Source: an uncultured Haliea sp. (lineage in GTDB: Bacteria > Pseudomonadota > Gammaproteobacteria > Pseudomonadales > Halieaceae). Taken from it: a stretch of DNA of 48,675 nucleotides. How positions within the stretch are numbered: the stretch's first letter is position 1; each line of letters begins with the position of its first letter. The stretch lies in the NCBI GenBank assembly GCA_947258585.1, contig CAMYIZ010000072.1, positions 1 through 48,675 of the forward strand, in the 5' to 3' direction. Below the pieces are notes generated by a model, which did no database searches, was not told the DNA's origin, and saw only the letters and a program-made list of their open reading frames with translations. Below, piece by piece: positions 15,359 to 18,783 of the stretch. Both the position numbers and the translations under genes were made by a program.

Positions 15359-15376
15359 ATCCCCCAGATCGTGAAG

Positions 15377-15401
15377 AAGCCGGGCTAGCCCCGGCTTTTT
15401 T
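15377..15401 (+). terminator. Rho-independent terminator of the alpha operon
   Basis: AAGCCGGG (15377-15384) and CCCGGCTT (15390-15397) pair around a CTAGC loop and run into a six-base T tract (15396-15401). It ends the ribosomal protein cluster. Confidence 0.93.
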
Positions 15402-15431
15402 GTGTGCGCTGCCCTAAGGTGCCACGTCGCC

Positions 15432-15545
15432 GCCCGGAGCCGCTGTCAGGGGCTGGCCGGACACGCCGTGAATACATCCGTGTAGGCTCGGTGACGGCAT
15501 CCATGCCGTCAACGGTCCGGACACCCCCTGACAGCACCTCCGGGC
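15432..15545 (+). repeat. Cloverleaf-like palindromic repeat, copy A
   Basis: The outer stem is GCCCGGAG (15432-15439) with CTCCGGGC (15538-15545), then GCTGTCAGGGG (15442-15452) with CCCCTGACAGC (15525-15535), then CCGGAC (15457-15462) with GTCCGG (15515-15520). Inside are two side hairpins: TACA-TCCG-TGTA at 15473-15484 and GACGGCA-TCCA-TGCCGTC at 15493-15510. Core blocks GGACACGCCGTG, GGCTC and AACGGTCCGG are shared with copy B read on the other strand. The known class (REP-like, MITE or structured RNA) cannot be assigned from one locus. Confidence 0.85.
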
Positions 15546-15730
15546 TGATTCCTCTGCCACACCTGATCCTTGCAGTACCTACCCGCGTGCTGTCGAAATA
15601 GCGGGTAGGAATACTGTGCGTGCCCGGATGAGTGGGCCGCCGCTGATCCATTTCGCGTGCGGCCCGGGAAGCTCCCGGTATCATCCCCAAGCTGAAGTCG
15701 CCCGAACGTGTCGTCGAAGTGGCATCGCAA

Positions 15731-15848
15731 GCCCCGGGGAGTGCGGGTTGAGGTTGCCCGGACCGTTGGCGACATGGATGTCGCCAAAGAGCCCCCATGG
15801 ATGGGTACACGGCGTGTCCGGGCAGCCTCAGCCAGTGCTCCCCGGGGC
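15731..15848 (-). repeat. Cloverleaf-like palindromic repeat, copy B (inverted)
   Basis: Arms of 32 bases (15732-15763 and 15816-15847) match at 27 of 32 positions, starting with a perfect CCCCGGGGAG / CTCCCCGGGG pair and ending with GCCCGGAC / GTCCGGGC; several mismatches become G-U pairs in RNA. Two side hairpins lie inside: TTGGCGACA-TGGA-TGTCGCCAA at 15766-15787 and CCCA-TGGA-TGGG at 15794-15805. Read on the minus strand, the core lines up with copy A, including the TCCA loops, while the outer arms differ in sequence but keep pairing. Confidence 0.85.
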
Positions 15849-15885
15849 GATGTGCAGAGTCCCCGGCCTTCCCAGTCGACCAACG

Positions 15886-18783
<2,898 letters not shown>

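Follow-up and report, generated by a model that had tools for sequence, protein, structure and literature searches.

The interval between rplQ and uvrA of an uncultured Haliea sp. contains two members of a scattered repeat family, and the conserved core of this family may represent an RNA hairpin module with two binding sites for CsrA/RsmA, a reading to which we assign a probability of about 0.5. The most likely account, as judged from sequence, is a dispersed two-hairpin element that is closely related to the Rfam families TwoAYGGAY and Ysr224, would provide a CsrA-binding module as RNA and would be spread or exchanged as DNA.

The window, i.e. the whole stretch of DNA analysed, measures 48,675 nucleotides. 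Its relevant part shows rplQ, a terminator-like hairpin of rplQ's own directly before copy A (read by eye), copy A, a spacer, copy B and the end of the convergent uvrA, in this order. Copy A occupies positions 15432-15545 (114 bp, GGA strand minus) and copy B positions 15731-15848 (118 bp, GGA strand plus), in inverted orientation around a 185-bp spacer (15546-15730); the coordinates, lengths and orientation given in the initial annotation are all correct. A covariance model (R1), built from 20 copies of the own genome aligned on the GGA strand (alignment A1), matches copy A at 15439-15538 with 97.5 bits and copy B at 15740-15839 with 96.6 bits. Alignment A1 and the pair counts place the core, a three-way junction bearing two hairpins with GGA loops, at 15459-15518 (minus strand) in copy A and at 15760-15819 (plus strand) in copy B. 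According to folding, the outer arm of copy A (15432-15458; 85% identity with its ortholog in genome G004) pairs with the inner, spacer-side arm (15519-15545; 93%), and the inner arm of copy B (15731-15759; 100%) pairs with its outer arm (15820-15848; 90%). The two copies are 75% complementary across 102 nt. As had been stated, the arms are unlike between the copies and complementary inside each of them, and each copy folds as the claimed cloverleaf: in RNA folding both strands of both copies reach z = -7.2 to -9.6, and for each of the four strands 0/200 dinucleotide shuffles were as good. The GGA strand gives -79.2 kcal/mol vs -75.6 for the opposite strand in copy A, and -91.9 vs -77.7 kcal/mol in copy B. 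The additional hairpins described for the spacer are present but weak (z = -2.1, 7/200 shuffles as good); the spacer is not common to other pairs, and it retains 58% identity in the G004 site vs 85-100% for the four arms. Scans of 15360-15900 gave no match to a sigma-70 promoter or a T-run terminator, the terminator scan having also missed the rplQ hairpin.

The family core comprises 60-62 nt and consists of GGAC, hairpin 1, GAGCC, hairpin 2 with a 5-nt bulge, and GTCC; outer arms of at least 20 bp prolong the GGAC/GTCC stem. Covariation in the family stems is strong. In the 20-copy alignment 91.8% of 800 cells are paired, 30 of the 40 pairs have been altered at both positions, and the number of doubly changed cells is 214, compared with 72.6 after shuffling and 38-56 for slid controls. 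These compensatory changes bear out the earlier suggestion of selection for structure. The strand that folds is the GGA strand, which is the more stable one in 19 of the 20 aligned copies. Outer-stem mismatches read on this strand in 243 copies with gap-free arms (only copies of 100-102 nt were kept) are strongly biased, with G.T 263 vs A.C 37, G.A 118 vs T.C 17 and G.G 68 vs C.C 9. If folding were not specific to one strand, the two mismatches of each class would be expected in roughly equal numbers, and any effect of replication or transcription direction should largely cancel because the copies lie in both orientations. The ratio of about 7 is alike for G.T, G.A and G.G, so that RNA wobble is not singled out and single-stranded DNA fits too; in the hairpin stems of alignment A2, G.T is not clearly in excess (14 vs 9 and 4 vs 6).

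The TCC(A/G) loops of the initial annotation do exist, but the other strand is the more informative reading, since it presents them as ANGGAN loops. Both loops on the GGA strand mostly read CANGGANG, and the published RsmE/CsrA motif is given as A/U-CANGGANG-U/A in passages of two papers (PMC6849547, PMC5864733). Two separate GGA hexaloop hairpins are found in 145 of 152 distinct copies from alignments A1 and A3, which were chosen without the GTDB pattern described below, although these counts lean on R1, a model of 20 own-genome copies that is biased towards loops of this type. Loop base 1 is A in 145/145 copies in both hairpins, A not being required by the count, and bases 2 and 6 are variable. 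A C-G pair closes the loop in 133/145 first and 144/145 second hairpins, and the two GGA triplets are spaced by 23 nt in 126 of the 145 copies. A CsrA dimer is able to bridge two sites about 23 nt apart. As a control, hairpins with a GGA hexaloop were taken from outside the repeats; of 1339 such hairpins only 197 have A as base 1. The bases that are fixed in the RsmE/CsrA motif are fixed in the repeat loops, and the N bases of the motif are free. Once the pattern-chosen loci are added, two GGA hexaloops occur in 235 of 280 copies, and loops of the form AYGGAY in 175 and 182 of these 235; in 3 of the 235 both loops were assigned to nearly one place (spacing 4), and the 152-copy recount therefore demands separate loops and leaves out the 80 pattern loci, because the pattern fixes part of hairpin 2. 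The 45 exceptions among the 280 copies include 16 with a CAGGANG pentaloop, which resembles the CsrB repeat, 6 with CTGGAC or CCGGAC loops that lack the A, and 8 incomplete copies.

Decoy RNAs such as CsrB, CsrC and RsmX/Y/Z carry several GGA hairpin loops that CsrA can bind and are single transcribed genes. The repeat resembles them in these loops, with two A(N)GGA hairpin loops in most copies, and differs from them in consisting of scattered two-site modules. A csrA gene was found in 54 of 58 genomes (own genome included, with four matches); the search found none in two repeat-bearing genomes, G016 (66% complete) and G045. No tracking of csrA copy number with repeat number was visible by eye across the 58 genomes. 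The genome with the most repeats (G051, 69 copies) also has nine csrA matches.

Two Rfam families cover parts of the repeat, so the earlier statement that no described family could be named holds only in part. With E up to 1 allowed, TwoAYGGAY (RF01731) matches the own genome four times, always on repeat-family members and on the GGA strand. Its scores remain just below the cut-off of 43 bits (42.3 for the best own-genome copy, 38.1 for copy B on 15724-15855), and at the cut-off 0/51 loci pass. Its alignment to the repeat reveals the same architecture: an outer stem, two hairpins with AYGGAY loops, and AAG and CGG between and after them. Rfam places TwoAYGGAY in clan CL00106 together with E. 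coli CsrB. In the passages seen, the family is listed for gammaproteobacteria (PMC2864571) and suggested as a CsrA binder (PMC4333381), whereas the high copy number, the outward pairs and the locus-specific arms of our repeat are absent from these descriptions. Ysr224 (RF02770), a Yersinia sRNA family, has a consensus that holds the opposite (TCC) strand of the repeat core. It matches a Sodalis member (L163) with 82.9 bits at a cut-off of 70, the sole pass among the 51 loci scanned, and scores only 23.8 and 21.7 bits for the copies in the window. Unlike our GGA-strand reading, Ysr224 is annotated on the TCC strand and as an sRNA, and part of one report (PMC9029176) describes it as temperature-responsive and among the most abundant annotated sRNAs. 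Another candidate was RsmU, a 3'-UTR RsmA-binding sRNA of Xanthomonas campestris (described in part of PMC7694677). Of 22 HHH_3 loci, the 11 with a small gene of ComEA size were inspected, in genomes of Xanthomonas and Stenotrophomonas other than X. campestris. One of these 11 has a copy, separated by about 1.3 kb from the gene; RsmU thus does not look like the repeat element and was rejected.

Copies A and B are members of a dispersed family. The initial annotation proposed a search for further copies as a check, and such copies are present in relatives as well as in the own genome, where BLAST detected more of them and R1 finds 29 places (2 of them cut by contig ends). R1 matches occur in 36 of the 58 genomes (own included), with 0 to 69 per genome. 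At least 119 stretches in GTDB genomes match a pattern in which part of hairpin 2 is prescribed; the 80 listed come from Xanthomonas, Stenotrophomonas, Arenimonas, Lysobacter, Marinobacter, Microbulbifer, Rheinheimera, Methylotuvimicrobium, Saccharospirillum, Sodalis and others. Carriage by phages or plasmids was rejected, as copy A had no blastn match in either collection. Some members are arranged or labelled in unusual ways. Four direct copies about 80 bp apart lie in a Saccharophagus MAG (L138:3110-3747), a Neiella array holds six copies with a duplicated block (L183:4876-5808), and three MAG contigs carrying the label Klebsiella pneumoniae (L202, L204, L214) contain copies. A small hairpin insert, alike in a Methylotuvimicrobium genome and a MAG, sits inside hairpin 1 (L213:2542-2689, L210:2967-3136) and looks as if another repeat had jumped in.

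For the arrangement of copies, 100 loci were picked from the best matches listed in the own genome, in G004 and in the 58-genome search. They yielded 187 matches (150 of which form alignment A3) and, after dropping 9 opposite-strand matches of the same places, 178 copies. In this set, 64 two-copy clusters have their GGA strands pointing outward, 0 inward and 1 the same way (12-bp gap); one four-copy cluster and 44 single copies make up the rest, and spacers range from 53 to 311 bp. The 80 pattern-chosen loci comprise 17 outward, 0 inward and 3 same-way clusters, 67 single copies and 5 larger arrays. Orthologous pairs were counted more than once in this tally, and the rule holds across distant lineages. 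All nine own-genome pairs within 450 bp are outward, as is a tenth pair with copies 805 bp apart. One outward pair of the own genome (L341:1960-2059 minus and 2865-2964 plus, contig C49) has near-identical cores (0.983) and unrelated arms; between its two copies lie genes for a HigB-like toxin (PF05015, E 1.6e-20) and a helix-turn-helix protein (PF01381), likely a HigBA toxin-antitoxin operon. When 83 spacers were compared, only 6 spacer pairs were similar, 5 of the 6 from orthologous sites. As the spacers of different pairs are unrelated, the repeating unit is one copy of about 115 bp, and the idea of a single 417-bp mobile unit, raised in the initial annotation, was rejected.

With genes taken as simple ORF choices, convergent-gene intervals are enriched in both locus sets (0.36 vs 0.18 and 0.32 vs 0.17 background) and divergent-gene intervals are depleted (0.17 vs 0.28 and 0.11 vs 0.24). 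Pairs occur between co-oriented and divergent genes too. The median gap to the neighbouring genes is 71 and 87 bp (pairs without an ORF over the cores), and single copies between co-oriented genes show no sense bias of the GGA strand (30 antisense, 19 sense).

Arms and cores have different histories. In the rplQ-uvrA ortholog of G004 the identity is 85-100% for the four arms and 58% for the spacer, only 87% and 77% for the cores, and 77% and 74% for the ends of rplQ and uvrA; the hairpin stems in these G004 cores are changed on both sides. A role special to the end of the ribosomal protein cluster, which had been suggested, is not supported by the rplQ loci of the own and related genomes, only 6/27 of which hold a copy, and by the copies elsewhere. 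Pairs occupy the rplQ-uvrA interval in the own genome (G000) and G004, and a different single copy is found in G003, G005, G006 and G007. In L256-L259, from four species of the genus other than the own one, the different single copy 3' of rplQ lies beside apparent tandem partial arm or half-core copies, which may reflect slippage at the hairpin. Within genomes (copies of 98-104 nt kept, as in the end-motif count below), 92 copy pairs have a core identity of at least 0.95, and only 10 of these 92 have an arm identity above 0.7. A comparison of G000 and G004, covering 25 copies of each genome, found the core nearer to a same-genome copy with unrelated arms than to the ortholog in 7 of 8 rows; in comparisons among G003, G005 and G007 this was so in 0 of 18 rows. 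Arms therefore stay with their place, whereas cores seem to be common to different places or swapped among them, in the two copy-rich genomes at least; core exchange between copies is the simplest reading. The titles and abstracts found by our searches of the open-access literature yielded no description of near-identical 60-bp cores in unrelated self-complementary arms, of outward-only two-copy clusters, or of a CsrA-like repeat family of such kind.

Whole copies including matching arms also occur at non-homologous places (C72A and C74, and G004 copies with these arms), which supports mobility. At another site G001 is without both copies, arms and spacer together, and in G006 the two copies survive as fused remnants, apparently through a deletion. 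The absence in G001 may likewise be a deletion, because copies are present at this site in other species of the genus; an origin of the arms from a pre-existing palindrome was considered and set aside, as this site does not settle arm formation. As regards MITE features, the pairs have no interior in common, and a search for empty sites from which target-site duplications could be read found no clean one. The motifs TGGCAC before the left arm (31 vs 7.0 among 265 copies) and ACGAAG after the right arm (29 vs 5.3) are enriched but weak, and may mark the true element ends.

An alternative that we consider possible, if tentative, is a mobile repeat acting at the DNA level only, similar to REP/REPIN elements or MITEs. 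Here the GGA strand would fold as single-stranded DNA that a nuclease or transposase recognises and mobilises in trans, with the loops supplying the recognition bases and no role for RNA. The many gene-free copies, the matching-arm copies at non-homologous places, the bias towards convergent gene ends and the strand-specific mismatch pattern are all compatible with it. So are the outward clusters, which recall REP dimers, and the REP-like reading of the arrangement in the initial annotation was well founded in this respect. The parts of PMC3733652 that deal with REP/REPIN and RAYT 'TIRtrons' describe intergenic palindromes in fixed opposite-orientation dimers 3' of genes, like our repeat, and report self-complementary TIR families in S. 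maltophilia. However, our repeat is much longer, has a two-hairpin core, and was not found flanking a Y1 transposase; at 114 and 118 bp copies A and B lie outside the REP palindrome size of 20-40 bp given in the abstract of PMC3733652. The search for a mobiliser covered Y1 transposases: none (RAYT-like, E up to 1e-5) was found in the own genome, and all 47 Y1 places in 20 repeat-bearing genomes included 1 with a copy within about 1.5 kb and 0 flanked on both sides. Y1_Tnp matches in the 58 genomes, with 30 loci examined, likewise gave 1 with a copy nearby. An origin from a RAYT/TIRtron system, an idea taken from the same parts of PMC3733652, was rejected, as the copies rarely lie beside Y1 genes. 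The unrelated spacers also speak against a DNA-level repeat, which moreover does not predict loops with the CsrA motif and free N positions.

A boundary device between convergent genes, be it a bidirectional transcription blocker, a 3'-end RNA stabiliser or a nucleoid/gyrase site (BIME-like), appears quite improbable. The convergent-gene bias and the short distances between pairs and genes would suit such a device, as would the position of copy A behind a gene with its own terminator-like hairpin. Yet the terminator scan of the interval was negative (with the rplQ hairpin missed as well), pairs are not confined to convergent genes, and the loop bases would be left unexplained. Ordinary neutral palindromes or an assembly artefact are scarcely credible: contigs C70 and C46 do end within copies, but the covariation, the conservation of orthologs above that of the flanking sequence, and the presence in many separately assembled genomes argue against both.

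In the preferred scenario, a CsrA-binding RNA module spread or exchanged as DNA, the copies themselves display the structure, the folded strand and the loop motif, and we infer transcription, binding and effect. Read-through or a local promoter would transcribe the GGA strand, the RNA would fold, and a CsrA dimer would bridge its two loops, so that the copies would serve as scattered decoys for CsrA or as 3' ends to which it binds. Since paired copies point outward, a transcript running through both, whichever side it came from, would contain one antisense and one sense module. A bolder and rather unlikely version would be a self-spreading, genome-scale CsrA sponge, made of movable two-site decoys that number in the tens per genome across gammaproteobacteria, in which each outward pair yields a sense decoy that can be masked by antisense, and in which TwoAYGGAY and Ysr224 are the two strands of one element.

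The strict orientation of pairs and the cores common to unrelated arms are puzzles of DNA mobility in themselves. If the CsrA reading is true, two Rfam RNA families of unclear role would be joined in one testable element, and a scattered repeat, present in different numbers in different genomes, would determine some of the targets that make up the pool of a global regulator.
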